Positions 4,101-42,272 of a stretch of DNA of 64,000 bases are shown piece after piece. Positions within the stretch are counted from its first letter, which is position 1; every line of letters begins with the position of its first letter. The translations under genes were made by a program, and so were the position numbers. The notes under the pieces are model-generated. The model was not told where the DNA came from, searched no databases, and worked only from the letters and a program-made list of their open reading frames with translations. Origin of the DNA: Panopea generosa (Eukaryota; Mollusca; Bivalvia; Adapedonta; Hiatellidae); the NCBI GenBank assembly GCA_029582155.1, contig CM055907.1, forward strand, positions 14,126,974-14,190,973. The letters are read 5' to 3'.

Positions 4101-7100
4101 TAGTAACATTTTTGTAGTTTACTTTCTTAAAATTAACATTTCATGAAAAATCACAACACGATGACGAACACAGGGTCTGTTAAAAGACGAACATTCGGTA
4201 CTATTAACATCCACGGAAAAAATTCTTTTTGGCAAATTGTGTAACGGCTTATATTATTTTTTCTGTAAATGACACCAACCCACCTTTTCAACTGAGCAAA
4301 ATAAGACGTTGTACATTTCCATGGCAACTTAGTCAGTTTAGTTTAAACTTATTACTTTTTACTTCGATTGTGAAACAAGTTACGCTCGAAGTCTTCCTTG
4401 GCAGAACCAGTATTAAACATAGGCAAAAAACAGTGTCTTGCACATATAACAGTGACGGGGGATCGAACCCACGACCCTCTGATCGTAGATCTGATCCCCT
4501 ACCACTGGACCACGTGCTCCACTTAATAGTACCGATAGGTTCATTTCCATGCAGAGACGGCGTTCGTCTTTGTTATGTGAATTTCATGAAATTTTAAGAA
4601 AGTGATTAGCAAAATATTACCTGTAGCGGACACTTTTCTTTCGATTTTTACACCAGTCCATAGCATAAGATCACGTCGATTCGCTGTCGCATGCTACTAC
4701 ATAATGATCGCAATCCCTGACTTCACAATCAACCCCAGTGCTGACCATGCCCCCTTAATCGATTTAATCCAATGAAAACAAACAAACAGTGCTAACGCGC
4801 ACGCGCTCGTGTTTGTGTTTGTTTATCAATGTTTGTTTCTTTCATCGGCTTAATTCTATAAATAAAAAAATATGTAACAAGACCATGACTGGTACCCAGA
4901 AACGAGAACGTAAGCCGGTTAGCGTAGAAAATACCATATAACTTCTAACCTATACAAAATTATCAGTGTTTTATTTCCTCATTTTCTATTCGTGTTGTTC
5001 AACTTTCTATTGTGTTTGATGTTTTTTTTATATGTATGTCCATTGTTTTACATTCTTGTCGTTAAGTTGTATATTGTGTTTGTTGATTTAATTTCCATGT
5101 TCTCAATATTTATTCCTATTGTTTAATTAAATTTGTGTTCGTTAATTTCATATAGAACAGAACAGATCATAACTTTATTCAGACTTGTAGATAGTACATC
5201 ATCATAGTATACAAACAAATTTACAATGTTAAGTCACGTTAAGTAACTTAACTTACAACTCACATAATAAATATGAAATGTTTATTATGATAATCCCTTA
5301 AAAGTATATCATTCAGTATTTTTTTTTTCCTTTCGTTTAAGGTAGGATGAACCAATAAATATGTAGCGTTATTGCTTAAAATATTAATTCTGTCTTTAAG
5401 ATAAATTCAAGTAGATTCATTTGTAGTTATCATCAATTCAATGAACTTAAACATAGAAGGTATATGGAAAAAGCACGTTTTATATAGCATTTTCTAAGAT
5501 CATTAAAACGTGGATATATACATATAAAGTCTATGTCATTACAACATACAGTATCGTTCACCTACCCGCTTGTATCCTCAGAAAATGTTAACTTATTTCA
5601 TTCTCGAAATAAAAACTCTCAAACTACTTGATAATGAATCAAGATAGGGTTCATTTTTAAGATGTTTGTAATTTTTAAGCACGATGCTTCTTTCTATTGA
5701 GATCTGTAAATTTTGTTTGAAACAATCAATTACTCGTTGATAAAAAAATGTATGGAAATGTTTTTGGATCTACATGATAATTATCCTCAACTACATATGT
5801 ATATCCATAATCACTTAACACTTTTTTAACATTTGATTTCCAGTTGGTTTAACCTTTATTGCAATGTTGTGAAACTTGATCATACACTTTTTTATTAAGA
5901 TATTATCAGATTTTATTACTTTGCACCAATATTCTATGATTCTTAAATAACGTATGATATATAAAGGAAATACTCCAAGTTCATTAGAACCAGTATTTGA
6001 TATAACATTTAAAATTCGTTTACAGAATTTCAAATGTATACCTTCTATTTCTTGAGATCGACTAAATCCCCATATTTCTACCGCAAAACCCTAATTAGAT
6101 CCCGGAAATGCATCAAGTAATTGACATTTTGTTTTAGGTTTTAAATTAAATTCATTGCACTTTGACAATAAATTGTTCAAGCTTTTAATGACTTCCCCAT
6201 TAAATGCTCCTGGTTTCATGCAAATTTACCCGTGAAATTAATAATTCCTTAATAGTTCAGATCATTCACCGATTCCAAGTTATAACCATTATAATTCCAC
6301 TCTTCGTTCTATAATAATCCTCCCCTTTTCCTGATCACCATAGTTTTTGTTTCGTCGGCAATTACCTCCAAACCCAGTTTCGAACAATTATCAAATAAAA
6401 TATCTAACTTCGCCAGTAAATCTTGGTGATTTACCTAAAATAACCATATCATCAGCAAATAATAATATAAGTGCAATATCATCTATTTCTATACCCGAAT
6501 TATTATCATATTGTAAAAAAAGCTCTTAGTCTTCTATAAAAAGGGGAAATACTATGGGGGAATTTACCTTCCTTTGCCTCAAGTACACTGCGTAGGCAAA
6601 GTTATCAGTATAACAATTGCAACACATTACACATGATTTGACATTTTCATACATGTCGCGTATTATGCGTAAAAGCTTTTCTTGGATGCCGGATTTGTAA
6701 AGTTTAAACCATAACGCATTTCTATATATAATATCAAAACATTTCTTTAGATCTAAATTCGATACGTATAAGTGTTTATTTTCATTCAAATATTTTGTTA
6801 CAATTGGATGTAAAACATACAATGCATCTACGGTTGAAGTTTTTCATATTTATGTTCTTAGTTTAACAATAAGAATGTTAAACGAATAACACAAATATAT
6901 AATTAAACCCCTTATATGTACAATTTAACGACACAAATGTTAAGTTTCAATAAGAAAAAGAGTTATACAGTTTATCAACGTCTAGCCTGCCATATATGTT
7001 TCTTTATTAGCCAATTTCCTTTAAGCAACTGTTAATCCAATCATGGCTTCAACGAGAAAAATGAATAAATGCAGATATCTTAAACATGTTCACACGAATG

Positions 7101-8196: not shown

Positions 8197-11100
8197 AGTA
8201 TAGTTGGCCAATATTTATAAAGTAAGGTATATATTTTTCCGTTGTTCCTCTGTCCGTCCGTACATACGTATGTACGTCAGACTTTCAGGAAGACATCAAC
8301 TATACTATTATATGAGTGTTGACATCTTATGTTCCATCAAAATGGTAGTTCTAACAGTGTATGTTCTAGATCTTAATAAACTATTCTTATTTTTGTTATA
8401 AAAATCATACAAAAGAAAGTTTATGTAAATTTTTAATAATAAAGTTATCAAAATATAAAACAATATATTCTGTAACCAAAATCACGAAGAATGGCTACAT
8501 ATGTACCTCAAAGATCAAGGTTACGTACATGACTCATTGGTGTTTTATATTACCATACACTGCGTTGTTGGTCGTGTCTAGCTTGTAACTTCCAAATGCA
8601 TGGAACAATTTTCAAATAAATTCATACCACAGCATGACTACGTGTGGTATGCAACGCCTAAGTAGCTACCCCAAGGGTCAATGTCGCGGGTCGGTTGTAT
8701 CTCACTTTCCCAACCTTTTAATTTAGCACCTATGCAAACAATCTCATGTTCCCAACTTTTCAATTCACACCTTCAAGTTACCTGTGTTTTTCTACACTGC
8801 TCATAAAAATTGAAAATAAAAGCGTAAACAAATTATGCATAAGGCAAACAATAATTTATTACGATAAATAATAAGCATTATGACTGATATTTGTTGATAA
8901 AAAAGTGGTTGTTTTTATATAAATGATTAGTGGATTGAAAATTAAGCAATTTATGATTGGATAATTAAAGGACTAATTTGGGTGATTAGGTTAAAGATGA
9001 CTAAATAATCCTATATCTAATGTGACAAACTGAATGACCAGAACTCACTTAAATAAGATTATAATTGATAATTACTGAAACAAAGTTAAAGTTGTACACT
9101 GCAATACAAACAAATGGCTAAGTATCATTTTAGTGCCTATACACTAGGGTCATGTTTAATATTTTATTATCATTCATGTCAATATGGCAAATGTGCAAGT
9201 CATAATAACGTTCATAGAAAACAGTCGTGGTGGACAGACTCTCATTCATAGTGAATTCATGTTCAGTCTCAAAACAAGGACACGTGACACTAGTTGCTGG
9301 AACTGCATCATAACCATCAGCAAGACCAAACTAGTATATCCTTCGCAGAAATGATGAGTAACGTCAGAAAATGAGTGAGATACTGTGGAACAAATTTCAG
9401 AAATCTACGATGAGATGATATCTTCCCTTCGTACTCCAGAATGGGACGAAAAACAGAAAAAGGATGGAAACATCATCAGGAGAATGCTTTCCCCTAGTCA
9501 ACGATGGTAATTCATCGAACTTTTAAAGAAAGAGCAATCTGTCAATGAAATTAGACTTTTGCAACATGCCAGTGGAGCTTACAGAGCAAATGATCAGCCA
9601 TTTCGTCAGATACTGCTTTTCAACTTATGAAGTTGGGACATTGAAATGTGTATGTATATTGAATAAAATAGCAAAAACAAACATTTAAGATCAGATCAGT
9701 TGTGTTTTAAATACATTGCATTATTTAATAAAATTGTTGTAAATACATAGCATTATTCAATAAAATTGTTGTAAATACATTGTATTATTCTATAAAATTG
9801 TTAGAATTATCAAAATATATATTGATTAACATAGCATTGCATTATTTAGTTACCCTATGTGTTCTTGTTATTGTTTATTGATTATTAAAATAAGGAGAAA
9901 GTGTAACTATTTTTTCACAAAAGTATAGCAATTATCACCACTTAAATCTATTGTTATATCCGAACAATACATTTTCACCACCACAACTACTTTTTCTATC
10001 TTAAACAATAGAGGTTGGGAAAGTGAGAACATACCCGCGGGTCAAGGTCGCGTACAGAATTTACGCATGCGGCAGCTGAGTATTTCTATTATAGTATGAC
10101 AATGAATTATGCCTATGGAGTGATGTCTATGAAGTAATGTCTAGCCAAATTACCTGTACGCAATTCCTGTGGCTTGTTTTGGACAGTTTCTTCTGCATGT
10201 AAACTATCACGACAGTCGGTTTAGGTTAGAATCTACTTTATTGAGTGTTGTCAAGCGGTAGGGAAATTTGTATCCATGGCAACACTTAATTCACTTGTGT
10301 ATTGTTCAATTATAAAATTGTAAAGGAGAAAGGAGAATTATTTTAGATGCTTGATAAAAATCGGTGCATTATCAAATCGTTAGATTTATATCTATAAAGA
10401 ACATATTGAAACACACATCTCAGACACGTTGGTTACAATTATCTTTAATCCTAATAGTCGTAGCAATAATTTGGCAAGGGATAATATAAAAAAAAACATT
10501 GAAAATATTGTTGGTAATATTGTATGACTAAGTATATATTTTCATTCGGACCACCTCGCCGATTATTCTAATCTAATACCGAAGGATGACGGAATTGGTC
10601 GAGTATGTACGATTGTATATTGATTTTTTATCCGATGTTCATGTTAACAACGTAACAAAGTAGCATTTCTGAGACCAGAGAGACAAGTTTGGAAGTATAT
10701 TTTCTGTGATACGAATATTTTAAATGAGATAGAGTGATATACACCATTTGTAAGTTCATAGGTCAGATGTAGAGAAAGTAAAAGGACACATACATACACA
10801 GAGAAATAGATTTAATAGTGAGGTTCAAGTATTAAAAACGGTATATTTCCAGAACAGCTTTTAGTTTTATTTGCACTTTTGTTCATATATGATTGTTTTT
10901 GTCATGTAAATAAAAAAAGTAAAACATGATCTTTATTTGCCTTTACCCCTGTTCGTTTTGTTAAACAGTATATATTATGTTGTTTTGTTTTATTTGAAAT
11001 TTTGCCTGTATTTAAACTTTTAAAAAATACATTTTAAGGCCGACCAGACTACTTTGTTAACATAACCAAAGCGACATGGGATACTGCCAAATATAGCTGT

Positions 11101-12117
11101 ACGCTGGCAACTCCTGACTTTAACGTCTCAACAGAGCGTCTCTTAGTTGATATTGAAGTGCCGGGACTAGATCTGACCGTACGAGACAAATTTTGGCTGG
11201 GGTACATCTTGACTTACAGTATATTTCAGTATATAGGTATGTGGAAGCTGCCGGTCCCGTATTCACATCTGAATCTAAGCATGCCACCAAACAAACTAAA
11301 ATTTAAAAACTGCTTCATTCAAACAATTGTGTATTATAGTATTTATATATAAAGTGTTCTAAAGACAAAGCCTGTATATAACATAGCATATTATTACAGT
11401 TCAGTTTGTTTGGAGCTTTTTCGGCAGAAACGGTAATGTCAACTTAGAAAGGAACGTTGAGCTGAGTTCATATATGAGATGTTTAAGATTGTCTATCCAA
11501 TTGAGAAAAAAATCGGTGTTCGATTTTTTTTATTTACATCTACTTTATAAAATTATGTTTTTATAAATAAATCAAATGATTTTTATTTCAGGTATTTTAA
11601 CCAAAATAAACACCTGAATTATGTTATATAGTTATGGATTTTGATTTGTTTGCACTCTTTATGTATGTTTTACTGTCGTTTATACACTAATATTATTTAT
11701 TTTTACTATTTGTATATCCCCGTGCGTTTAGGTTGTACAAAGTCAAATAATATCAACAGCATTGCCGAAGAACACTACATCCCAGAGTTCAATACGAAAC
11801 GATGTTTCTGGACATGTGGACACACAAGATATATTGGGCTAGGAAAGACCAAGGTAACGTTGAGATGAATGTTTCTTATGACGTATCACTATGTTAGTAG
11901 CATAAAGTGTCGGATGATATGATTGAAGGCGACACAAGACCTACCTACCTACCTACCTACCTATTGAACTACCTACTTACCTACTTAAATACCCACTTAC
12001 CTACCTACCTAACTACCTACCTACCAACCTCCCTACCCATACCCACCTACATACCTACCTACCTACATAACTACTTACTAAACTACCACTTACCATCCCA
12101 CTTACCTATCTACCTAA

Positions 12118-12148
<31 letters not shown>

Positions 12149-15100
12149 CCGTACCGAACTGCCCATTTACCTACCCAACTGCCAACCTACTTACCCACCT
12201 GCCCACTTATCTACCCACCTACCTACACATCTAACAACCTATCCACCTACCTACCCACATACACACCTACTTACACACCTACCCACATACCCACCCACGT
12301 ACCCACCCAACCACCCACCAACCTACCCACCTAACAACCCACCCACGTACCTACCCATTAACCTACACACCCACAAACCTACCCACGCAAAGTCTACCCA
12401 CTAAAAGCCTACCAAACTACCTAACTACAAACCGAACTACCGATCAACCGAACTACCTATCTACCTAACCACGTACGTACCTACGAACTTACGTACCTTC
12501 TTACCGAAAAACTTACCATCCTACCTACCTACCCATCCACCCAACTACCTCTCTCCCTACCTATCATCTAACCACCTACCCACTAACCAACTTACCCATC
12601 TATATACCTACCCACTTACCCGCCTACCCACATACGTAACTACGTACATTCCTACCTACATACCTACCAACCTACCTACCGAATTACCGAACTACCGAAT
12701 TACTTACTTACCGAATTACCTACCTACGTACTTCCCTACCGAACTACCTATCGAATTACATACTGAATTACCACCTACCTACCTACCAACCAACCATCCT
12801 CCCTCCCATCCTCTCTACATACCTACCCTACCTACCAAAATATTTACCTACCTACCTACCTACCTACCTACCTACCTACCTACCTACCTACCTACCTTCC
12901 TACCTAACTGCCTGCCTGCCTACCTCCCTTCCTCCCTACCTACCTACCTACCTACCTACCTACCTACCTACCTACCTACCTACCTACCTACCTACCTACC
13001 TACCTACCTACTTACCTACCTACCACCTATCTATACAACTGCCAACCTACCTACCCGCTTGCCCACCTATCTTCCCAACTACCCATTTACCCATTTACCA
13101 ACCTACCCACCTACCAACCTACCCACCTACCCACCTACCTACCTACCCTCCTACCTACCCACATACCAACCCACGTACCAATCGAACCACCATCCCACTT
13201 ACCCACCTAACTAACCCCCACCTACACACCCACCAACCTACCCACCCACTCACCAACCAACCTACCTACCTACCCACAGACGTACCTACCTACTTACCTA
13301 CCTACATACTGAACTACCTAACCACCTACCGAACTAGCTACCTACCTACCTATCTACCTTCCAACCTACCTACATACCTAACTACCTAACTACCACTTAC
13401 CACCCAACTTACATACCTACCTACCTACCTACTTACCTACCTACCAACCGGACTACCTTACGAACTATCGAACTTACCTACCTACCTACCTATCTTCCTA
13501 CCTACCGAACTACTTACCTACCGAACTACGGAACTATCTAACTACCTACCGAACTACCGAACTATTATCTACCGAATTACCTAAATACTGTCTTATTCCT
13601 CCCGAACTATGTACTGAACTACCGAACTACCTTCCGAACTACCAGCAATTGCATCACTCTAAAACACAAATTTAACAAATCAATTGCCGACAAGAATGAA
13701 AGGAGATCTTGGTTAGAAACATATTTTATATTCAATTACATTTTGAATGGCGTAGAAAAAATATATTTGATGAATGAACAGAAACACAAATCGATTCAAT
13801 AATAATGATTGTAACTTTTGTAACGAAATTGAGTATTTGATTTTTTCTTTTCCATTTCAATCTGTGATTATATATTATCGGAATATGTTGTGATTAAATT
13901 AAGTTGCGAATTAAATTATATAACTTGTTCAATGGTAAAATTAAAATCAAAATTATTTTAATTTTCAAAGGGAAAAGAAGTGTGTTATTGTGTAAACAGT
14001 CTACTAAATATAACAGAAGCCCGGGAAACAGAATGTAAACAACCATGCAGTCGTAGACATTTACTATGCGGAGGTGACAATTTTGTGTCATTATATGAGA
14101 CAGGTAATCCCAAATGTGTATTACTGTTTATTGCGTAATATATCTTTGATATCTTTTATACGTTTGGTCACGCGGATAATGTTATATCACCGCTTTTTTA
14201 TAGACTTGCTAATTCAGTTACGTATATGTACACATGTACATATGTACCTGTATAACTGCCAGTATAACTGCCACTCACGAGTGTTGAAAGAAATAAGGGG
14301 TCTCGCTTCTAAAATCAAGCTCGCGACTTTTGAACTTTTAATGCAACAATTAATAATACCGTCTTCCGTGACCTAGTGGTTAAGGCGCGCCCTCTCCACC
14401 ACCACCACCCCCTCCACTCCACCTCGGAAGCGGGAAGTCGTAGGTTCAAACTTGGGTTTTTCTACCTGTTGCGGCCGGTAGCTCATAAAGCACCTAATTA
14501 AAATAAGAGGTACCGTTTGTCTAACAGTCTGGAAAGACTGGCTTTCGGGAAGAAACCGTGTACAATATTGTGGTTAAAACGTTTTATATGATTTATCTAT
14601 AGTGTCCTTTTCCATTCCTAAACACACATTTTTGAGGAAATACAAATCAGCTTGGCATTCGTTGAAAAATCGATTTATTAGTGAAAATCAGTAGCATTTT
14701 TTTTAATTCTGTTGAATAATATTGGAAATATCTGAAACATTATTTTGCTGTGCCAACTCAAAATTATGGTTCATGAAAATTTTGCATTTGTTTTGCACAG
14801 AAACTACATTTAAAACTACAATATACTGGGAATTACTGTTTTATCAATATTTTGGCGAATTAGCTATTCCGTTCAGTATATTAAATAATGGGGAATACTT
14901 GGTCTTCCCTAAGTTTCGTGTCATGCTTCATTTCGTTATTTTTCTAGTTCCAGGTTTATCTTTCGATAACGTTAGTCCCGGTAAAGGTTTATACATTAGC
15001 AATTGTATTGTCTATGATACATCAACTGATGTCTTCAGATGGTCTGAATGCAACAACTATGATCAGGAGAGTTTTAGTTCGTTGTGCCAAACGGATAACG

Positions 15101-18100
15101 GGACACTTATTGTTGATTCTCTTCTTGTTGCAAACTGGAACGAGGCGGTTAAGAGATGCTTCGAGACTAATAGTTTCCCAGCCAGACACCACTTCATTTC
15201 GTCGATACCTAAACAACACATCAAGAATAGTAGCATGCTGTGGACTTCAATGTTTAGATTTAGCGTTCTCAGTAAATATGCTGGTAAGCCAGCTATGGGT
15301 GGATCAAATGTTGAAATCACATATCATCATAACGAGACACATACATGTTTTGGGAGAAAAGTATTTAGGTTTCACTACACAGTTGAATTTTGTTCTTTGT
15401 TCTATATAAAATAAAGTCTAGGATTTCCATGGAAAAAATGAATTTCACATAGAATGTTGTCTAAAGTTTTCACAGCAGGAATGTATATCCACAAACAAAT
15501 GCACAATAACTGGTAGGATGACCAGCGTGTTTTTTTTTATAGAGGGTGTAGTGACACCCTGATTTTTTTTTGAAAAAAAAATTCCTTAAATGCTCGTAAA
15601 TACATGCTTATGTTTAAATCCTATAAAAGTCATTTTTTAACACCATTTATGTCTTATTGTAGTATATGCTATGCCAACATTTTCTCTACTCATCTGCAGC
15701 AAGAAATCACAACTATTATGAACCATTTTGAAAATAATTAAAAACTAAATTACATGGGCCTTTTTTAAGCGTAAGAAGCATGTAACCGTGGGAAAAAAGT
15801 GGCGTAATTGTGTAGTGAGACGTAAAATATATCGGTAGATGTCCAAGATGAGAAATAGTATTCACGAGTCATGAATGTACATATGTAATGAACTAAAATA
15901 GAAACGCTCCTCTCTGCTTAAATACATCCAGAAATCCCAAAAGGTTACGGTTATAAATAATAAACGATACATAAAGTTTATTGATTTGTGGAGGATCGTT
16001 ATTAATTGAGTAAATTTTGTTAGCACGAGCATTTTTATGGTAATATCAGACACTCGTTATGTAATATCGTTAAGACAATCGAATTTTATTCAACAACTTT
16101 CGTTAATAACCTATGTGAACACCACGAGCAGTAGAACTATTGCGTGTATCCACTCATTACAATGTGTGTTTCTATAGTGTCAAGTATAAATGTATTTACA
16201 CTTGACAGTCTAATGGAATTTGAAAATAAAGAATATTTATTGTTTAACAGGACACTTGGTCCGACCAATATCAATGTTGATTATGTTATTAGCACAATTA
16301 AATGAAAGTACACATAAGTTCATGTAGCAGTCAGGTAAAGAAGTAAGGAAAAGAAGTAAAGAAAGACATGTCCTTTTATCAAAATCGATTAATTCTCTTG
16401 TGCATACCACAAAACTATGATGTTTGCCGTGATTTCAATGCAAACTTTTGTATTACGAATTTAAGATGTGTGAAATGCCTGATTTATGAAACGTTAATCC
16501 TTTTTTCTGTTTTTTATAAATATATGTTTTACATAACATAAACATACTACTTACAGAGATAGTTACGCAATATTTGCAAACGATTTAGCTCATGTTAAAA
16601 CAAAATATATGGAAGGAATTTTCAAGTTTAGAAATGTTATATTTTTCTTAAATTTATACTTTATAAAACCAAACAGTCCATTTTTTTGTTGTGGTCTTCC
16701 TATTATTTTCAAACCAGATTCAATAGTTTACAATTTTGAACAAATGAGTCAAGATCATGTGAGGATTTTCGAGAATTAATATGGCTACCTTTTTATTTGT
16801 ATTATACATGAACTACAATGTATATTTGTTTCTTGACCAGCACTTTTGGTACTAGTATTGTTTAAAGCAGCATAACTAGTATTTGAAGATATTTTTTTAT
16901 GAACAAAGAAACAAGTTGTTTATGAATGACAAACATTTTCGTGAAACCTCATGACCTTCGATGTATTTATAACAGCGGATACTTTTTTAAACGTGAATAA
17001 ATTGTGTTTTAAATATTAATTTACTGATCAGTAATTCTGGTATGCAAATTAATTCCTGCGCTGACGAACCTAGGTTTTTAAATTAGAAGCCGTTTATGGA
17101 GCACTATAGAGGAAAAACCGTGCAGATATGGAAATGAACAATTTTATTTGTAACGGAATTCAAATATGAGCGATTAGAGCGAGTTTGAATATATGTTTTT
17201 TTTGCGATAAACAATTGTATTTTGCACTATGTATGATCAAGATAGTCAATATTACAAGTATAGAAGGTATTTTATTGATTTGACAGAAAGCAAAGAACTG
17301 GTTATGCCGCTTTAAATACGTTTAACATTTTAACAACTGTAATTGTGTGAGTAAAAAAGTAGGAAGAAGTGAGTTCATATCACTAAATAATAATGATTAT
17401 ATACAACATTCATTTATGTCATACTCATTGACGTCACAGGTCAAGAGAGAAAACAAATTGAGGCATTTTGTTTCCTGAATATATGGGGTAACACAGGATT
17501 TTTGATGTTGATTGGAAGTTCTACATTGCGTTTAAAATCGGTTTGCCAGAATGGTAAAAGAGCTTTAAATCATTAATAAAGTTTCCGCACTGTAAATTTG
17601 ATATAAGAACAGCCATATTCAATGAGCAATTTTCTATTATGCAGTTTAATAGTATGGTTGATTGATTGATTGAACATTTAGCGTCATTTTATGGCATCGA
17701 GGGCTAACCAACGATTAGTTAACCTAACCACTGTTTCCTGGGATCCTGAAATGTTTACCAGTTCTCTAGTACACCCCATCTCCGTAAGTAGCTGACAATT
17801 TTCCTTCTTGAATTAGCGATGGGAGACGAATGATAATGAGACACAATGTCGTATATCAGTCATCACAAACGGAGACTGTTCCCGGGCGGAGATTCGAACT
17901 CACGACCCCAGGATTGTTTGCCAGACGCGTTACCGACTGAGCTTATCGGGCCCGGCTTAATGGTATGGATGATGTTGATAAATGTGTCACAAACGTTCCC
18001 AGAAAAGTAACTTAATACATTGTTAATACTTATGTGAGAACAAAAAATACAATATATAACCAATGCCTTTCCAAACAGCCGTAAATAATATGTTGTTATG

Positions 18101-21100
18101 TAACTACCTTGTATCTATTATTAATGTTGATGATGTTTCATAATTTTATGTAAATAATATAATTATTTATTTGTATAGGTCACTTATAGGTCAACTGGAC
18201 CGCATGTGTTGTATAAAATTGGACGTCAGTATATCATGTCACATGTACGTCACTATAATAAAATATTTAATCACTCACTCACTTACTCACTCACTTAGTT
18301 GTGTTTTGTATGCAACTACATGTATAAAAAAATTATAACTACAAGTATTTTCACATTACAGTGGTTTAACTAAATACTTCATGTATCAATATATATATAT
18401 CGTATATATACTTTTCATTTTCATTTTAGTTTGTTTATTTGTTTGTTTGCTTGTTTGTTAAGTTGGTAGTCCGTCTATGTTGTTAATAATAACTTTGAAT
18501 ATAGATTATCCTTTATTTTAATTATTGTACTTCACACACAGAAACAATACCACCAACATCCATAGATTCTGGACAAACATCAACGACTAGACCAGAATCT
18601 ACTGAAGGTAAACAACAAAATGATGATAATGCAAAACGTATCTTACGTAATAATTGTTGCTGTATGTACATTCCATATACATACATACGTCCAGTATGTT
18701 GAATGGTTATTTATTTGTCAATGTCAAATATATAACTGAATACTGTGTATGAATTTAAGTGGTCTTATCATTTGATAACACTATTTGACGGGATGACCGT
18801 GTCTAACGTGTTATCTAACACATTGTCTAACCAACAAATGTCAATGATATAAAATGAGTTTGGGTTTATTAAGCGCCGGAAAGCAGTATGTTAGAAAATA
18901 TCGCTGCTAGTTTCTAACTATAAATTAAATGAATAGATTGATTGAATATTTAGCATCATTCTTATGCCATCGAGGGCTAACAGACGATCAGATACCTTAC
19001 CACTGTTTCCTTGGATTAACCCGTACTCGAGCACATCCCATCTCCACAAGTAATTGATGACTTTCCCACTTGAATCAGTGGTGAGACACGAATGATAATG
19101 AGACACAATGTCGTATATCTATCATCACGGAGACTGTTGCCGTGCGGAAGATTGGAACTCACGACCCCTAGATTTATAGTCAGACGCGTAACAGACTGAG
19201 CTAATCGGGCCCGGCTAGAATTAATAGAAAAATATATCTTTATCATTCATAATGAAAATACGAATGATTTGGAGTTTGTAATCCGTAATTACGGGGCAAA
19301 AGACGATATTTTAATTGTGGTAAAATTAAAACGAATTTCCTACAATAAATATCACTGACATACTGTTTGGCGACCCTTCACCCAGCCATAAGGACTCTTT
19401 TTAATATAACCAATTTAAACAATGTATATCCAATAGGTCGTATGAAATTGCAATCAAAATCTATCTTAGTCTAACTTGGGCTCGTAGACCAAGTTATGGC
19501 ACCCGTTTTTAAAGTATCATTTGGTATTTTTAAATAGATATCCCTATGGCAACAAGGGCTGGGTGAATATAAATTGTTATTATATAACAATAAAAAGTTT
19601 TATAGGCAAATATACATTCTTGAAAAATCTAGATATGCTTCCTTTAATAGTACACATCTCTTTGACGTTGTGACCGTGGCTTTCTCACTGAACCCAATGT
19701 TTGGCCAACAGATAGTATATTACATTACATAATAGTCTGGGTATGTTTATAAAACGAAAGCACTTTGCTCATTGGTCACTCATATGTACGTATAGTAGCT
19801 CGAGACATAATTTGACAACTTCAAGAAATAAGTCAAAACCAATACTTTATAATCACAATCATACTCTTAATTAAACCAGATTAAGCAATATGTCGTCAAT
19901 ATCATCAATCAAATCGCAATCAAAATTAAACAACCTTATTCAATTGATATGTCACAACATATGTTGCAACTCTATTTTGATCTAATCTGTGCATGTTTGT
20001 TAGGTTAGGAGATTCCTTTTCAATTAATTATTTTTGCCGGTTAGTTATATGCTCTTTTTAACAAAAGTTCTGTGTGTATAAATAGAATAGGCATGATATA
20101 AATTGTTAAAGTATTTCTGGCCAATTTTAAATTTTGAAAACTCCGTTTATGCTTTAACTGCAAAGAACTGCATCCTTGAAGTTATGTCTGTGTACTAAAT
20201 GTTTATCTCCATGTTAGACCAATAAATGATATATGACATTGTGTTTTATAAAACATAAGTAAATGTTCTTTTTCAGATTATATTTACATCGTTGTTGCAG
20301 TTGGCGGGCTGTTGTTGATAGTTAGTATCATCACAGTGGTGGTTATAGTAAGAAATAGGTAAAACATTTTAATATTACGAATTTTGATGAAATATAGACA
20401 TTTGTAAACGAGTATTTTCAATAATTTCATTGTTTAAAAATACTATTTAGCTAAATGCTGTTTTCACTGTTTTTATTCATAATTTTTTTTTTTCAAAAAA
20501 GAGTTTATTTTAGTGAAAAAGCAATTAAATTCGGCTCATAAACATAGGCGTTTTCAAGGCATGTTTAGTCTTCAACATATAACATGTTCTATATGGCAAA
20601 TACAGTTTTATTTTGGAGGAAGACCTCACATTGAATCTTGATAGAACCAGCATCCTCGCACAAGTCACTTGCAAAGCTCTGAGGTGAAAATACTTAAACT
20701 ACTCGAACACGAAGGACAAAAAATTAAAAGCACTAACTTGATTTTATTGATTCTATAAAATATCTATAGTTTTACTTTTAAATATTTTAGGAGAAGGCCA
20801 GGGAATACAACTGATAATGAAACTAACCAACATGAGATTCCGCTTGCTGGTCCTTCTGATGCTGTTTATACAGAACTCGAACAAGCCGAAGATGTACATA
20901 CCAATATACCACCAGCTACAAGGTAAAACATTTTAATTTGGTGCTTTTTAATGAATTATAGCAATTTCTAAGTGAGTATTTTCATTAATTTCATTGTTAA
21001 AAATACTGACACTGCCAGAAGATATTTTCACATTTTTCTTTCATAAAATAAAATTTAAAAATAAGAGTTTATTTTAGTGAAAATGCAATTACATTCGGCT

Positions 21101-23203
21101 CATGAACATTGGCATTTTCAAGGCATGTTTACTTTTTCAACATATAACATGTTACACATGGCACATCCAGTTTAATTTTGTAGGAAGACCTCATAATGAA
21201 TCTGGGTAGAACCAACATCCTTCCGTAAGTCACTTGCAAAGCTCAGCGGTGAAAATACTTAAACTACTCGAACACGGAGGACATAACAATGTAAAGCGCA
21301 AACTTGGTTCAATTGATTCTATAAAATATCTATAGTTTTTTATTTTAAATATTACAGGAGAAGGCCAGGGAATACAACTGATAATGAAACTAACCAATAT
21401 GAGATTCTGCTTGCTGGTCCTTCTGATGCTGTTTATACAGAACTCGAACAAGCCGAAGATGTACATACCAATATACCACCTACTACTAGGTAAAACATTT
21501 TAATTTGATGCTTTTATGTGAATTATAGCAATTTTTCTAAGCGAGTATTTTCATGAATTTCATTGTTAAAAATACTGACACTGCCAGAAGGTATTTTCAA
21601 ATCTTTCTTTCATAAAATAAAATTTAAAAAAAAGAGTTTATTTTAGTGAAAACGCAATTACATTCGGCTCAAGAACATTGGCATTTTCAAGGCATGTTTA
21701 CTTTTTCAACATATAACATGTTACACATGGCACATCCAGTTTAATTTTGGAGGAAAACCTCAAAATGAATCTGGGTAAAAGCAACATCCTTCCGCAAGTC
21801 ACTTGCAAAGCTCAGCGGTGAAAATACTTAAACTACTCGAACACGAAGGACATAAAAATGAAAAGCGCAAACTTGGTTCAATTAATTCTATAAAATATCT
21901 ATAGTTTTTTATTTTAAATATTACAGGAGAAAGCCAGGGAATACAACTGATAATGAAACTAACCAATATGAGATTCCGCTTGCTGGTCCTTCTGATGCTG
22001 TTTATACAGAACTCGAACAAGCCGAAGCTGTACATACCAATATACCACCTATAACTAGGTAAAACATTTTAATTTGATGCTTTTATGTGAATTATAGCAA
22101 TTTTTCTAAGCGAGTATTTTCATAAATTTCATTGTTAAAAATACTGAAATTTCCAAAATATATTTTCACTGTTTTCATTCAACAAATAAAAATTTAAAAA
22201 GAGTTTATTTCAGTGAAATAGCAATTAAAATTTTGACATTTTCAAGGCATGTTTTGTCTTTAAACATATAACATGTTATATAAGGCAAATACAGTTTTGT
22301 TTTAGAGGAAGACTTCACATTGAATCTTGATAGAACCAGCATCCTCGCAAAAGTCACTTGTAAAGCTCTGAGGTGAAAGTTAAGTGGTCATCAGAGAACA
22401 GTGACTGAACCCACTCGGCCACGGAGGACAAAATAAAAAGATAATAATAAACTTTGTTTTTATTGATTCTTTAAAAAAAATGTTTTTTTTTTACTTTTAA
22501 ATATTTTAGGAGATTGTCAAGGAATACAAATGGTAATGAAAATAACCAATATGAGATTCTGCTTGCTGGTCCTTCTGATGCTGTTTATACAGAACTCGAA
22601 CACGCCAAAGCTGTCCATACCAATATACCACCAACTACTAGGTAACTCATTTTAATTTGGTACTTTTTCTATGAATTATAAACATCTCTAAGCGAGTATT
22701 TTCATTCATTTCATTGTTAAAAATACTGAAATTGCCAGAAGGTATTTTCACTGTTTTCATTCGTATATTAAAAATTTAAAGAAAGACTTTATTTTAGTGA
22801 AATAGCAATTAAATGGGTCATAAACATTGACATTTTCAAGGCATGTTTAGTTTTTCAACATATAACATGTATGGCACATCCAGTTTTAATTTAGAGAAAA
22901 CCTCATAATGAATCTGGGTAGAACCAACATCCTTCCGCAAGTCACTTGCAAAGCTCTGAGGTGAAAATATTTAAACTAATCTAACACGAAAGACAAAAAA
23001 TGAAAAGCACAAACTTGGTTTTATTGATTCTATAAAATATCTATAGTTTTACTTTTTAATATTTTAGGAGAAGGTCAGGCAATACAACTGATAATGAAAC
23101 TAACCAATATGAGATTCCGCTTGCTGATCCTTCTGATGCTGTTTATACAGAGCTCGAACACGCCGAAGCTGTTTATACAAATGTACAACGAACTACTAAG
23201 TAA
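1081..23203 (+). CDS. Predicted single-pass receptor: C-type-lectin-like and WSC ectodomain, tandem tyrosine-motif tail (12 exons)
   Basis: Exons 1081-1156, 11039-11236, 11732-11853, 13971-14103, 14954-15283, 18542-18607, 20277-20358, 20791-20922, 21358-21489, 21927-22058, 22510-22641 and 23068-23203 join in phase to 557 codons including the stop. Order: signal peptide (1-25); CTLD N-half (about 26-91; W39, C46, FWLGY); WSC module (about 92-176; CYC, CKQPC, LLCGG); CTLD C-half and a second WNEAVKRC segment (177-286); Ser/Thr/Pro stalk (287-308); membrane helix (about 311-333); five 44-residue tyrosine cassettes (336-556). All introns are GT-AG. It is probably a plasma-membrane lectin or pattern-recognition receptor with a phosphotyrosine tail. 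The family assignment rests on motifs; ligand and signalling partners are unknown. The weakest links are the end of exon 5, with a possible missing exon before the stalk, and the 3' end. Confidence 0.72.
1157..5150 (+). other. Intron 1, left part: no gene seen
   Basis: AT-rich intronic sequence without a supportable exon on either strand. A short (GAAT)n run near 2938-2952 and a tRNA-like SINE near 4385-4530 are the only structures recognised. Confidence 0.6.
4385..4530 (-). mobile_element. tRNA-derived SINE copy
   Basis: On the minus strand there is an A-box-like GGTCCAGTGGTAGGGGATC and a B box GGGTTCGATCCCC. They are followed by the module with AATACTGGTTCTGCCAAGGAAG that other SINEs in this window share. 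It reads as a retroposed tRNA-head SINE, not a working tRNA gene. Confidence 0.65.
5155..6830 (-). mobile_element. Decayed non-LTR retrotransposon (LINE), reverse transcriptase part
   Basis: On the minus strand, about 6822-6526 reads LDLKKCFDIIYRNALWFKLY and GIQEKLLRIIRDMYENV, typical of the LINE RT core. After a stop, LILLFADDMVILGKSP near 6460 carries the catalytic F-A-D-D box. Further down, 6033-5815 has FCKRILNV and ELGVFPLYI like the C-terminal LINE region. The copy has several stops and frame breaks, so it is dead. The 3' end near 5155 shows ATAAAG and a short GTTCT repeat in place of a poly(A). It lies in antisense orientation in intron 1 of the lectin-type gene. Confidence 0.8.
6831..7777 (+). 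other. Intron 1, middle part: no feature seen
   Basis: AT-rich sequence with short TATG/ATAT runs near 7456-7484. No coding signal, tRNA or clear repeat was found. Confidence 0.5.
7778..8119. repeat. Long inverted repeat (about 82-88 bp arms)
   Basis: The left arm 7778-7866 and right arm 8038-8119 are near-perfect reverse complements, sharing GATACAGTGAATTCATATAT and its complement, around a spacer of about 170 bp. The motif ATTCACAATGNATGATATAT follows both arms in direct orientation. The structure could be a foldback or MITE-type element. Confidence 0.85.
8134..8191. repeat. (TA)n microsatellite
   Basis: An uninterrupted run of about 29 TA dinucleotides directly beside the inverted repeat. 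Confidence 0.95.
8700..10028. mobile_element. Candidate DNA transposon with 17-bp terminal inverted repeats
   Basis: TCTCACTTTCCCAACCT at 8700-8716 is the exact reverse complement of AGGTTGGGAAAGTGAGA at 10012-10028, enclosing about 1.33 kb. Inside, around 9400-9630 on the plus strand, a frame with at least one stop reads EIYDEMISSLRTPEWDE and KKEQSVNEIRLLQHASGAYR, which looks like decayed coding sequence. A second partial copy of the terminus, ATGTTCCCAACTTTT, lies at about 8746. No transposase catalytic residues could be recognised and the target-site duplication is unclear. Confidence 0.6.
10029..11038 (+). other. Intron 1, right part: no feature seen
   Basis: AT-rich intronic sequence up to the acceptor TTTTAAG at 11038. 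No further exon or repeat was recognised. Confidence 0.5.
11039..11236 (+). CDS. Lectin-type receptor exon 2: N-terminal half of a C-type-lectin-like domain
   Basis: A 198-nt phase 1-1 exon with ATWDTAKYSCTLATP and later KFWLGYILTY. The spacing W-x2-A-x3-C and the later F-W-L-G are hallmarks of the first half of a CTLD. The donor is ATAG|GTATGT. An N-glycosylation site (N-I-T) lies early in the exon. Confidence 0.75.
11732..11853 (+). CDS. Lectin-type receptor exon 3: first half of WSC domain
   Basis: A 122-nt exon, phase 1 to 0, encoding GCTKSNN and FNTKRCFWTCGHTRYIGLGK. The pattern C-x3-C followed by Y-I-G-L matches the WSC family (Cx3C...Y.G). It fits only with exon 4, which supplies the CyC and CGG parts. 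Donor AAG|GTAACG. Confidence 0.75.
11938..13645. repeat. 1.7-kb CCTA-type tetranucleotide array with CCTG patches
   Basis: A nearly continuous run of (CCTA)n and variants (CCAA, CCCA, CTTA, GAACTAC), including perfect stretches at 12846-12895 and 12937-13015. The open frame rich in YLPTYLPT across 11907-12404 is a by-product. The array occupies most of the intron that splits the WSC domain. Confidence 0.95.
13971..14103 (+). CDS. Lectin-type receptor exon 4: second half of WSC domain
   Basis: A 133-nt exon, phase 0 to 1: GKEVCYCVNSLL, ETECKQPCSRRH, LLCGGDNFVSLYETG. This matches the C-terminal WSC signature (CyC...C...C...CGG...Y). Acceptor TTTTCAAAG, donor CAG|GTAATC. An N-I-T sequon is present. 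Confidence 0.8.
14368..14545 (+). mobile_element. tRNA-derived SINE copy
   Basis: An A-box-like GACCTAGTGGTTAAGGCG and a B-box-like TAGGTTCAAACTTGG, separated by an expanded CCACC run, then a shared body with TGCGGCCGGT and GAGGTACCG. A related copy lies at 53388-53530. Confidence 0.7.
14954..15283 (+). CDS. Lectin-type receptor exon 5: C-half of CTLD plus second lectin-like segment
   Basis: A 330-nt phase 1-1 exon. It encodes GLYISNCIVYDTSTDVFRW, SECNNYDQESFSSLCQT (the W..C...C end of a CTLD), then ANWNEAVKRCFETN and SMLWTSMFRF, resembling the start of another lectin-like fold. Two in-frame acceptors, 6 nt apart (after 14947 or 14953), would add or drop Val-Pro. The donor is GCTG|GTAAGC. 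The frame stays open to about 15365 (ETHTCFGRK) before a dispersed repeat begins, so a longer exon is possible. Confidence 0.7.
15366..15830. mobile_element. Dispersed repeat, family with AGGTYTCACTACACAGTTG end
   Basis: Sequence from 15366 to about 15830 is clearly homologous to 27028-27470. Both share the TTCACTACACAGTTGAATTTT start, CATCTGCAGCAAGAAA and AACCATTTTGAAA. Short copies of the first part occur at 35730-35950 and 36175-36270. Class unknown; there is no coding capacity. Confidence 0.75.
15831..17650 (+). other. Intron 5: no exon recognised
   Basis: AT-rich intronic sequence. It was searched for a missing C-half of the second lectin-like domain; no open segment with suitable phase 1-1 splice sites and cysteines was found. 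Confidence 0.45.
17655..17957 (-). mobile_element. tRNA-derived SINE (head GCCGGGCCCGATAAGCTCAG), CAAT tail
   Basis: On the minus strand the head reads GCCGGGCCCGATAAGCTCAG TCGGTAACGCGTCTG with a B box GAGTTCGAATCTC. The 3' tail is (CAAT)n at 17658-17674. It is the same family as 18938-19217 and 43200-43505. Confidence 0.8.
18542..18607 (+). CDS. Lectin-type receptor exon 6: Ser/Thr/Pro-rich stalk
   Basis: A 66-nt phase 1-1 exon encoding ETIPPTSIDSGQTSTTRPES TE. It is rich in Ser, Thr and Pro, as in a mucin-like membrane-proximal stalk. Acceptor CACACAG, donor GAAG|GTAAAC. Phase and position just before the membrane exon support it. Confidence 0.7.
18938..19217 (-). mobile_element. tRNA-derived SINE, second copy of the CAAT-tailed family
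   Basis: Minus strand head GCCGGGCCCGATTAGCTCAG, B box GAGTTCCAATCTT, body ending in GATGCTAAATATTCAATCAA. Homologous to 17655-17957. Confidence 0.8.
19218..20276 (+). other. Intron 6, right part: no feature seen
   Basis: AT-rich sequence between the SINE and the membrane exon. No exon or repeat was recognised. Confidence 0.5.
20277..20358 (+). CDS. Lectin-type receptor exon 7: transmembrane helix
   Basis: An 82-nt exon, phase 1 to 2, encoding DYIYIVVAVGGLLLIVSIIT then VVVIVRNR. A hydrophobic run of about 23 residues ends in basic residues, as in a type I stop-transfer sequence. Acceptor CTTTTTCAG, donor AATAG|GTAAAA. Confidence 0.85.
20791..20922 (+). CDS. Lectin-type receptor exon 8: tail cassette 1
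   Basis: 44 codons. The first tyrosine site is replaced by His (NQHEIPLAGPSDAVYTEL), leaving one YxxL (YTEL), then VHTNI. Phase 2-2, donor AAG|GTAAAA. Confidence 0.85.
21358..21489 (+). CDS. Lectin-type receptor exon 9: tail cassette 2 (ITAM-like)
   Basis: 44 codons with YEILLAGPSDAVYTEL, a full YxxL-x8-YxxL match to the ITAM pattern, then VHTNI. Acceptor ATTACAG, donor TAG|GTAAAA. Confidence 0.85.
21927..22058 (+). CDS. Lectin-type receptor exon 10: tail cassette 3
   Basis: 44 codons with YEIPLAGPSDAVYTEL. The first site is YxxP, so only the second is a YxxL motif; VHTNI follows. Phase 2-2. Confidence 0.85.
22510..22641 (+). CDS. Lectin-type receptor exon 11: tail cassette 4 (ITAM-like)
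   Basis: 44 codons. The N-terminal part has drifted (RLSRNTNGNENNQ) but YEILLAGPSDAVYTEL is intact and again fits YxxL-x8-YxxL. Donor TAG|GTAACT. Confidence 0.85.
23068..23203 (+). CDS. Lectin-type receptor exon 12: tail cassette 5 and stop
   Basis: It encodes YEIPLADPSDAVYTEL, then VYTNVQRTTK and TAA at 23201-23203. Unlike copies 1-4, the last site keeps Tyr: YTNV, which also fits a Grb2-type pYxN pattern. At the place where other copies have CTAG|GTAA, this one reads CTAAGTAATG. It could be a true stop, a donor AA|GTAATG, or a one-base insertion that cuts off a longer tail. Confidence 0.65.
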
Positions 23204-23631
23204 TGATATTGTTGTAGTAAACAATACGCCTAACGATGATACGGATGACGCATACGACACTATTTATAAGATTAAATCGAGTATTCAAGCTAAAGTACAT
23301 ATGAGTGAAAATACTGGAAATGCGTATACTACGTTTAATGACGTTAGTGGCAAAATTTACAACTACACAACGTTAGAAATAGAACCGGTGGCACTCTTTT
23401 TATACGAAGCAATCACACACTATCAATAATGCTATCCGCGGAGGTGAAAAAGATATCTGCGTAAACACGTATAGTCATTTGGATGGACATATCATTCAGT
23501 CTAATAAAGAAACAACATTTAAAGGGGGAAATGCCGCAGCAGAGCTCCCACAAGGTGAAACTCGTGATATCATCGTTACTAGTCCTTTATTGATATTTCG
23601 GCAACACGAGTTCGTCAATTTCATGTTTTAG
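23204..23631 (+). pseudogene. Possible out-of-frame continuation of the receptor tail
   Basis: Directly after the stop, the +1 frame is open to 23427 and reads DDAYDTIYKI, GNAYTTFND and KIYNYTTLEIE. A third frame is then open from 23377 to 23631 and contains CVNTYSHLDG. Both carry YxxL/I-type motifs and composition unlike the AT-rich surroundings. It looks like about 140 codons of former or alternative tail separated by two frame changes. It may be decay, an assembly indel or alternative splicing. Confidence 0.5.
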
Positions 23632-24215: not shown

Positions 24216-25255
24216 TCACCAAAAAAGCTTAATATGTACAGTGTAACATAGTGGTGCATTTAGGGATATGATAACACAACAGCTTAATATGTACAGTGTA
24301 ACATAGTGGTACATTTAGGGATATGATAACACAATAGCTTAATATGTACACTGTAACATATTGGTACATTTAGAGATGCGATGAAACAATAGCTTAATAT
24401 GTACGATGTAACATAGTGGTACATTTAGAGATGCGATAACACAATAGCTTATTATGTACAGTGGTACATTTAGGGATAAAATAACACAATAGCTTAATGT
24501 GTACGGTGTAACATAGTGGTACATTTAGGGATACGATAACACAATAGCTTAATATGTACGGTATAACATAATGGTACATTTAGGGATGCAATAACACAAT
24601 AGCTTAATATGTACGGTGTAACATAGTGGTACATTTAGGGATGCAATAACACAATAGCTTAATATGTACGGTGTAACATAGTGGTACATTTAGGGATGCA
24701 ATAACACAATAGCTTAATATGTACGGTGTAACATAGTGGTATATTTAGGGATGCGATAACACAATAGCTTAATATATACGGTGTAACATAGTGGTATATT
24801 TAGGGTAGCGATAACACAATAGCTTAATATGTACGGTGTAACATAGTGGTACATTTAGGGATGCAATAACACAATAGCTTAATATGTACGGTGTAACATA
24901 GTGTTACATTTAGGGATGCAATAACACAATAGCTTAATATGTACGGTGTAACATAGTGGTGCATTTAGGGATGCAATAACACAATAACTTAATATGTACG
25001 GTGTAACATAGTGGTACATTTAGGGATGCAATAACACAAAAGCTTAATATGTACGATGTAACATAGTGTTACATTTAGCGATGCGATAACACAATAGCTT
25101 AATATGTACGGTGTAACATAGTGGTACATTAAGGGATGCGATAACACAATAGCTTAATATGTACAGTGGTACATTTAGGGATACGATAACACAATAGCTT
25201 AATGTGTACAGGGTAACATAGTGGTACATTTAGAGATACGATAACACAAAGCTTT
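24216..25255. repeat. 55-bp tandem repeat array (about 18-19 copies)
   Basis: The unit contains AGCTTAATATGTACGGTGTA and ACATAGTGGTACATTTAGGG; copies at 24601 and 24656 give the 55-bp period. A few units have internal deletions (near 24456 and 25164). Confidence 0.95.
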
Positions 25256-39501: not shown

Positions 39502-42272
39502 TAACAATATGCCGATGAAAACAATGATGCTATGTTACCATCTTACTTTTTGTATCTAGTGCTATAGCATTTGGCCAGGAGTCGTTTTGTAGACGTTTGA
39601 TGACACTTCGGTTCCCACCATCCATGGTTGCGACCTCAATCTTCGGCTCCATACCCCAGTCGGTCCAGTATATCTTTCTACAATATATCATGAATATTAT
39701 TATATACCTGTAAGTGTATAGCCAGTTACATAGATGCTACCACGTGACCGTACAAGATGTAGAAATTTATGGGATCCAATAAATTTTATTTTGCACAGTT
39801 CAAAAAAACGGAAATAAATTTAGTAGAAATTTCAACGATAAAACCGTCAAAATGTTCCAAATGACAATGACGATGAGAAAATCCAAATATCTGTCACTGC
39901 AACTTCCGCTAATCGTCTGCCGATTTGAACTCACGGTTTACTTATTTAAAAGGATCTTTATTTTTCTCAGATTGAGGTATAGAATAAAAAGATCATTTTA
40001 CAGTGTAAAATATGGGAATATGTTGTACGAGTATGTATTGTGGTGAAAACCATATTGGGCGAGACGCCGTAATACGTATTGTGGTGAAAACCATATTGGG
40101 TGAGACGCCGTTATACATATTGTGGTGAAAACCATATTGGACGAGACGCGGTAGTACATATTGACCATACTGGACGAGATGCCGTAGTACGTATTGTGGT
40201 GAAAACCATATTGGACCGGACGAGGAAGTACATATTGACCATACTGGACGAGATGCCGTAGTACGTATTGTGGTGAAAACCATATTGGACCGGACGAGGA
40301 AGTACATATTGACCATACTGGACGAGATGCCGTAGTACGTATTGTGGTGAAAACCATATTGGGCGAGACGCCGTAATACGTATTGTGGTGAAAACCATAT
40401 TGGGCGAGACGCCGTAATACGTATTGTGGTGAAAACCATATTGGACGAGACGCCGTAGTACATATTGACCATACTGGGCGAGACGCCGTAATACGTATTG
40501 TGGTGAAAACCATATTGGACGAGACGCCGTAGTACATATTGACCATACTGGGCGAGACGCCGTAGTAAGTATTGTGGTGAAAACCATATTGGATGAGATG
40601 CCTACTGTGGTTTTCATCCCAATACGGACAATATATTCCCATATTGAACAAAACACTGTAAAATAACCTTATATTAGTATTGATCACAATGTCAGTAACT
40701 GTCACTATTGAACTATCCCATGACGGTGAATGCTGCCATACGTTGTACTATTTGTGATTGTGTACTTATAGTTATATTGATTTGTGTGTGTGTATATACA
40801 TATATATACGTGTGTGTGTGTGTGTGTGTGTCTGTGTCTGTGTCTGTGTCTGTGTCTGTGTGCCTTCAAATATTATGGATTTTAAGCCGTTAAATATTGA
40901 ATGCTATGCATTAGAAAATGAATATTGACCGAGACGACAGACTATTTCAATGTGTATATCATATCACATTCAACATCGGAAAACTCCATACTTGTTTTAG
41001 TATATGATTCACCACTATTTTCATAGAATACAAAATGTAAATAAAATAAACTTAGTGAAAAATGGCGAATATAAAAAAGATGCAGTTGATTACTCTTTGG
41101 GCAAATGGACCAATAAAATTTGGTTTATTTTAAGATTAAATTATAAATTCGACGGTTGGCAAAAGAAATATGCGCTCAAAAAGCGTCGCATAATAAATTC
41201 TGCCAGCTCGTTTAATAAATTCAATAATAACTGGACACTCATTAAAGATCCTCTATACAAAATAAACAAAATAAATCAAAGAAGTTTGTTTGTATGTTTG
41301 TTTGGTGTTTCTCGTCGCTTTCAACACTTTTTCAGCTATATCGCAACAATAAAGAAATAAATATGATGCATGTACCCTTGTTCTGGATGCACAATGATAT
41401 CTCTTGGTTCGTCCAAGCTGCTATTGACGATGGTTTTATAAATGGATGGATCTTTCAGTGACACTACAACGATGATGTTGTATTGGGTGCAGGTATAAAA
41501 CAGGAGTTGATTGATGTAGTCTACCGCCAATCCATCCGATACGGAATCTGCAAAAAAGTACAAGTCATAAAATAACCATAAAATGAATGCTTAGTCCAGC
41601 ACAAACTGTTTGTAATGAGTCGTCGGTAAATACGAAAGAACGCCCTTTAAATGGAACGGTTGTACACTTAATGCATGCATAGTTTACCACAAACTGTGTT
41701 AATGAGTCGGCAAATACGTAACAAACGGTAGTGCATTTCAATAATTGTTGGTCGGTCACCGGCGCAAGAAGTTCCGGCGGGTTCGATCGTTAACCCAACC
41801 CGATGACCTCTCAAGAAACAAAACGCAGTATTAGTATTATTCTACTTCGAACGTGGACTCGCTCAAAAGTCCTATATACGATTAATACATTTCACAGCGA
41901 AATTATATTTATTTGCATTAAATTGACAAATATTAAATTTATTACACGTGTGGCGATTTAACTATGCTACTGACCGCAGCGTGGATTAATAGTAGAGCGT
42001 CCGCCCCGCATGCAGAAGGTCGTGGCTTCGATCCCCGACCGGGTCATACCAAAGACTTTAAAAATTGAGAATCATCCTCGCTTGACGCTCAGCATTTAGA
42101 GGAAAGTTCTAGGTCTGGTCGGCCTAATGTCGAAATGCGACTGGGTGGGGTATCATAAAATGTGTCTGCGGCATGATACTCCAGTGTGACAGCGCTCAGA
42201 ATGCTTTCTCAAGTAGACGCCTTCATGATATGGCTGAAAAATTGTTGAAAGTGACGCTAAACACAATACAAT

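Follow-up and report, generated by a model that had tools for sequence, protein, structure and literature searches.

In Panopea generosa, a predicted receptor gene carries five tandem copies of one tyrosine-motif tail exon, here called a cassette, and the number of cassettes ranges from 1 to 7 when sister genes of the same genome are compared. The repeated tail exon was first noticed in a 64,000-nucleotide stretch of contig C14 (C14:14126974-14190973; the window) and is confirmed here, and cassette number is found to vary between sister genes. With a probability of roughly 0.55, we read the gene as encoding a type I membrane receptor with a rebuilt tail, in which duplicated YxxL cassettes act as SH2 docking units and their copy number is evolving rapidly. 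This copy-number system at the level of the exon is more interesting than the ITAM that it contains. The original prediction did not cover the 26 other members of the gene family on this contig, nor the frame-broken remnant of a longer tail directly past the stop.

All five cassettes of the window (20791-23199) are 132 nt long and have an AG acceptor and entry phase 2 (Table 1). The introns ahead of them measure 432, 435, 437, 451 and 426 nt, and identity among the copies is 86-96% for cassettes and 80-95% for introns; these positions and identities agree with a five-fold intron-exon duplication following the transmembrane exon. The earlier description of five exons, all of phase 2-2, holds for cassettes 1-4, which have GT donors. 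Cassette 5 is followed by AAG TAA, with the stop TAA at 23201-23203, and its donor-like site, TAA/GTAATG, has a predicted U1 pairing energy of -2.6 kcal/mol, compared to -6.4 to -6.8 for cassettes 1-4. Because of this poor pairing, cassette 5 is better taken as the terminal exon.

Table 1. Features of the predicted receptor gene, in window coordinates (a slash within letters marks an exon-intron border)
Feature	Position	Strand	Description
Ectodomain exon 1	11039..11236	+	phase 1-1; W..A...C....WLGY pattern
Ectodomain exon 2	14954..15366	+	3' end approximate; 79-85% identical and open in 6 sister loci
Stalk exon	18542..18607	+	phase 1-1; Thr/Ser/Pro-rich; AG and GT borders; copies in sister genes
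Transmembrane exon	20277..20358	+	82 nt; phase 1-2; donor AATAG/GTAAAACATTTTAAT
Cassette 1	20791..20922	+	HEIP...VYTEL
Cassette 2	21358..21489	+	YEIL-x8-YTEL, exact ITAM pattern
Cassette 3	21927..22058	+	YEIP...VYTEL
Cassette 4	22510..22641	+	YEIL-x8-YTEL, exact ITAM pattern
Cassette 5, read as terminal coding exon	23068..23203	+	ends TTK-stop; YEIP...VYTEL plus VYTNV
Distal-tail relic, out of frame	23204..23600	+	counterpart open in 6 single-cassette sister genes; predicted 3' untranslated

Ten tyrosines are predicted for the tail, with a single one in cassette 1, a pair in each of cassettes 2-4 and three in cassette 5; a gene model built from the sequence places the motifs on the cytoplasmic side, downstream of the transmembrane segment. 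Cassettes 2 and 4 contain YEILLAGPSDAVYTEL, which fits the ITAM pattern YxxL/I-x(6-12)-YxxL/I; the exact YxxL-x8-YxxL in these two copies, and its partial form in copies 1, 3 and 5, had been correctly read. The probability that a shuffled 44-aa cassette resembling copy 2 shows the pattern (x6-8) by chance is 0.0011, and cassettes 2 and 4, being related by descent, do not count as independent occurrences.

Other features of the window include a minisatellite directly past the receptor gene (24226-25254; 55-bp units, ∼19 copies) and a reverse transcriptase fragment (6526-6840, minus strand; Pfam RVT_1, E 1e-7). Exons of a protein of the LDL-receptor-related type lie at 31428-59446 on the minus strand, with Pfam matches to Ldl_recept_b at 39530-39733 (E 1.8e-11; two further matches, at 55568 and 56886, fall below the cut-off) and to an EGF-like domain at 59306-59446 (minus strand). 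Six other minus-strand ORFs had no Pfam match, and Rfam gave nothing above gathering score within the window.

A cassette query against the 1.47-Gb assembly (39 contigs) gave 82 matches with E values no higher than 0.001; every one falls on C14, either at 1.85 Mb or within 13.4-15.0 Mb. Including the window, the family consists of 27 gene copies (26 further places retrieved) on this one contig, with 86 distinct cassettes; the cassette table has 88 rows, two frame-shifted L026 cassettes having been entered twice. Broken cassettes included, nine genes have one cassette and 18 have 2-7 (77 cassettes). We scored a cassette as intact if it had an AG acceptor, a GT or AT donor, an open frame and a length divisible by three. 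Sixty-three of the 77 cassettes in multi-cassette genes pass, 60 of them with a GT donor and three with AT (L012, L020 and L025, where the donor of cassette 2 has mutated from GT). The other 14 lack an acceptor at the matched place, contain a stop or frame shift, or are fragments, and some family members look like pseudogenes. Two pairs with nearly identical 5' flanks, L015/L034 (99.9%) and L016/L024 (99.7%), might be assembly duplicates. By match places on C14, each of the nine single-cassette genes has a multi-cassette gene of the same orientation ∼19-33 kb downstream of it, an arrangement that would be expected had such neighbours been duplicated jointly as a pair; of the 18 multi-cassette genes, nine lack a single-cassette neighbour of that kind. 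The single-cassette gene directly upstream of the window (L021, C14:14116000-14125500) has an open 216-aa tail, but the 9.5 kb examined there yielded no transmembrane exon.

Closely related copies differ in cassette number. L027 and L029 have 5 and 6 cassettes, counted with or without broken ones, and 5' flanks that are 99.4% identical. With broken cassettes included, the counts are 6 versus 3 for L011 and L012 (5' flank 97.7%; intact only, 5 versus 3), 3 versus 7 for L012 and L015 (97.3%; 3 versus 6), 5 versus 4 for the window and L031 (96.8%; 5 versus 3), and 5 versus 3 for the window and L020, whose 3' flanks are 99.2% identical. Cassette number thus differs across flanks of 97-99% identity and is therefore still changing. 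In a tree of the 425 nt ahead of each cassette, first cassettes come together in one region for 17 of the 18 genes, that of L009 lying apart, and cassettes of the RRLSRNTNG type cluster. This tree suggests that several cassette types predate the spread of the gene copies.

The single- and multi-cassette genes differ in what follows the cassette. In six of the nine single-cassette genes, the cassette is the start of an intact 216-aa terminal exon whose open frame encodes further tyrosines; the remaining three have a terminal exon that ends at 56 aa. Where a multi-cassette gene has a recognisable terminal cassette, as 15 do, the distal sequence behind it is out of frame every time, and hence the stop past the cassette is common to the family and not an error at a single place. 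Relic matches are spread over two or three frames in 14 of the 15 (in the other, L026, they occupy one frame, from 345 nt only), and eight have a stop within the first part of the relic. L011, L015 and L034 have a degenerate cassette and then a match to the last 38 residues of the tail only. At the cassette/tail junction, the single-cassette gene L010 reads ACTAAAGGTAATG and the window ACTAAGTAATG, two bases apart. The long tail is probably the older state. No outgroup was found to order the tail states, and a 101-aa tail query gave 83 matches at E up to 0.001, none outside C14.

The splice donors hint at how the exon multiplied. Introns behind intact internal cassettes start with GTAAAACATTTTAAT or close variants, like the intron behind the transmembrane exon, and no such start was found behind terminal cassettes or the cassettes of single-cassette genes. 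This shared donor suggests a possible route, the simplest account being that unequal exchange fused the cassette end (ACTA) to the AG/GTAAAAC of the transmembrane exon. Tandem duplication of intron plus cassette with this junction would have made a symmetric internal exon from what had been part of a terminal one. As the internal cassette comprises 44 codons and is symmetric in phase 2, its gain or loss leaves the reading frame intact. In L018, L027 and L029, five ITAM-type cassettes have a weaker donor, GTCAAAC (predicted U1 pairing -4.0 versus about -6.7 kcal/mol), which might favour cassette skipping. The accessible part of PMC4974935 describes how tandem duplication can hand splice signals to new introns. 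Duplication of exon borders, as described there, likewise supplies ready splice signals; here, in contrast, part of a terminal exon would have become repeatable coding cassettes, several times over. The family would be a clear example of a borrowed neighbouring splice donor making part of a terminal exon into a repeatable internal one.

Across the family, the ITAM is not a conserved motif. Exact ITAMs, formed by the first and second tyrosines, occur in 18 of 63 intact cassettes (13 of 42 distinct DNA sequences) and in none of the 18 first cassettes. The commonest two-tyrosine form is YxxP-x8-YxxL (31/63, and 15/18 first cassettes), the commonest single element is YxxL at the second tyrosine (50/63), and the first tyrosine is kept in 62 of 63. 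For the second and third tyrosines, YxxL-x6-YxxI is found in 2/63, with Val replacing Ile in 10/63. Asn occupies the first-tyrosine position in all nine single-cassette genes, eight of which lack the second tyrosine; the second is also gone from cassette 3 onward in the arrays of L011, L015 and L034. The ITAM reading of the original prediction therefore stands for copies 2 and 4 of the window, but describes a minority form in the family. Among the 56 cassettes of 132 nt, codon 18 reads CCG in 33, CTG in 17 and TCG/TCA in 6; in the single-cassette genes it is CCG in 1, CCA in 5 and CTG in 3. Since Pro and Leu alternate here, the exact ITAM depends on a readily changing residue. CpG decay was considered as the source of this alternation and set aside: the codons CCG and CTG fit, the change recurs with reversals, and the argument is weak because the observed/expected CpG ratio of the window is 0.90. 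A hemITAM is a single YxxL after an acidic stretch, DEDG; PSDAVYTEL has YxxL with one Asp at -3.

Fifty-six SH2 matches were found in the genome, and 29 of these were examined. For one exon, the best PDB match is SYK (E 1e-17), with ZAP-70 at 7e-14 and SHP-2 as the first match outside that family (2.4e-8); for another, it is SHP-2 (E 3e-36). Exons of activating and inhibitory reader types are therefore present, the SYK-type evidence being a single SH2 exon with neither a second SH2 domain nor a kinase domain located. Coupling of the cassette tail to Syk is plausible but unproven, and the tail itself would be a signalling one.

The cassettes diverge less than the 425 nt upstream of them (0.099 versus 0.177; the exon is lower in 92.5% of 1537 pairs, leaving out three pairs identical in both). 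Counted on the upstream tree, and roughly so given recombination between exon and upstream sequence, replacement changes number 136 and silent ones 48 over the whole cassette (omega 1.00). Omega is 1.37 in codons 1-14 (30 replacement, 7 silent), 2.9 in codons 15-31 (31 and 4) and 0.74 in codons 32-44 (75 and 37); for codons within the first 93 nt it is 2.2, with an uncorrected P value of 0.018 in one of 12 frame-and-region tests. Purifying selection at the amino-acid level was not found in these counts. So few silent changes suggest gene conversion or constraint at the base level and are not evidence of conserved protein function. Replacement changes in the second-tyrosine motif are estimated at 2 for Y, 1 for L and 7 for the middle residue (codon 29). 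Ratios of mean dN to mean dS between single and multi cassettes are 1.03 for L019 and 2.06 for L010 (56 comparisons each). Dual coding of the open second frame was rejected: no constraint was seen, the phase-1 frame having an omega of 0.80 over the first 93 nt.

These observations leave room for other readings. YTEL, YTDL and YEIL fit YxxPhi, the endocytic sorting signal recognised by AP-2, and the YxxL/YEIL units might mainly be such signals for this clathrin adaptor, with their number tuning uptake rather than kinase signalling. The prevalence of YxxL at the second tyrosine would agree with this, as would a horse CEACAM tail with a reported tyrosine-based sorting signal (accessible part of PMC5856374). 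However, AP-2 needs neither a further well-kept tyrosine nor the YEIP setting found in about half of the cassettes, and sorting is unlikely to be the main role. Phosphorylated YxxP is a Crk site, and the predominance of YxxP-x8-YxxL among two-tyrosine forms, particularly in first cassettes, could mean that the cassettes recruit Crk-type adaptors at YEIP; together with the SHP-2-matching exon, it could also mean that they recruit an inhibitory SHP-2-type phosphatase. The receptor would then be adaptor-coupled or inhibitory. The window copies nevertheless depart, by eye, from the ITIM consensus S/I/V/LxYxxI/V/L (accessible part of PMC5856374), with Ala at -2 before YTEL (DAVYTEL) and Asn before YEIL (NQYEIL), and we hold this alternative to be improbable as well.

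A different possibility, about which we are doubtful, is that most of the array has no adaptive role and reflects a recent cluster of segmental duplications, in which intron-exon units multiply by unequal crossing over, gene conversion homogenises them and many copies retain little function. Such a cluster might show the whole-cassette omega of 1.00, the values >1 across the first two thirds of the exon, the ratio of 0.90 for ectodomain exon 2 and the low silent change in the motif, and the 14 failed cassettes and three GT-to-AT donors point the same way. Yet 63 of 77 cassettes still pass the intactness tests, cassettes diverge less than the sequence preceding them, and ectodomain exon 2 is open in seven of the eight loci where it was found. 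We favour SH2 docking by the duplicated cassettes.

The ectodomain is less readily placed. Exon 1 is possibly the divergent N-terminal half of a C-type-lectin-like domain and has 54 matches in the genome, its own included (53 further), on C7, C10, C11 and C14. Pfam matched neither ectodomain exon, alone or joined, up to an E value of 5. When six sequences of exon 1 were combined into a profile, PDB gave seven matches at E up to 5 (CLEC4C, three; CLEC4A, one; ceruloplasmin, three), the best being CLEC4C (E 0.15), with ceruloplasmin at 0.75. Other PDB sequence matches, to a mannose-recognizing lectin (E 1.5) and RIF1 (E 0.17), were dismissed as being at chance level. A divergent C-type-lectin fold is possible, but the 'lectin-type' label of the original prediction is weakly founded, with Pfam blank and the family profile grazing C-type lectins at E 0.15. 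Exon 2, broken in L026, has an overall dN/dS ratio of 0.90 among seven open copies. Its first 45 codons have dN 0.149 and dS 0.105, compared to 0.062 and 0.096 for the remainder, which gives only a hint of a variable recognition region, because the boundary was chosen by hand and seven copies make a small sample. A long ACCT-type microsatellite occupies 11939-13558 in the large intron between exons 1 and 2.

Several known receptors resemble this family in part. CD3-zeta, an adaptor chain with three ITAMs, and other multi-ITAM chains also have several tyrosine motifs per tail, whereas in the window family every motif sits on an exon of its own and sister genes differ in how many they carry. Drosophila Draper has an unrelated ectodomain and is not known to have a repeated tail exon. 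It is comparable as an invertebrate ITAM-bearing receptor with a Syk-type partner, the Syk orthologue Shark (accessible part of PMC5138034). In multi-ITAM chains, motif identity affects signal strength, according to the accessible part of PMC11779709. Oyster CgCLec-TM1 and CgCLec-HTM, described in the accessible parts of PMC13027682 and PMC12842671 as transmembrane C-type lectins with a hemITAM and Syk-ERK signalling, bear out the idea of Syk-coupled lectin receptors in invertebrates. They too are invertebrate membrane receptors with a tail tyrosine motif and a Syk partner; in contrast to the window gene, those texts give them one hemITAM each, mention no repeated tail exons, and report a recognised lectin domain, where the window ectodomain is unrecognised by Pfam. 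The CEACAMs of bat and horse are likewise a rapidly duplicating receptor family with motif-bearing tail exons, ITIM/ITAM exons being lost through mutated donors or splicing, but the accessible parts of PMC5594555 and PMC5856374 describe no tandem array of a single tail exon. Botryllus has allorecognition genes with members of ITAM/ITIM pathways (accessible part of PMC12065747); the accessible part of PMC5877582 added nothing on ITAMs. Within the accessible parts of the open-licence literature, we met no tandem array of one tyrosine-motif tail exon.

Taken from sequence, the proposed mechanism runs as follows; we infer the order of events, expression, phosphorylation, the partner and the effect on signal strength. 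A sister form has a single cassette, with which its 216-aa terminal exon begins. In multi-cassette genes, the frame directly past the last cassette is different, and because of this difference the protein would end there and the distal tail decay. Most cassettes contain one YxxL (YTEL, YTDL or YTKL) along with another tyrosine whose surroundings vary more (YEIP or YEIL). Upon ligand binding, a Src-family kinase would phosphorylate several cassette tyrosines, and the phosphorylated sites would dock SH2 proteins such as Syk, with docking capacity set by the number and type of cassettes. More tentatively, the family may be an evolving signalling rheostat, in which recombination adds and removes phosphotyrosine exons, giving each sister receptor 1 to 7 docking units (YxxP-first, then YxxL/ITAM), internal units could be skipped in frame, and the array became the whole signalling output once the old distal tail was lost. 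Antigen-receptor output is thought to be influenced by motif number, mostly on the basis of engineered changes. With motif number varying exon by exon between sister genes of a single genome, the effect of copy number on receptor strength could be tested directly outside the vertebrates.
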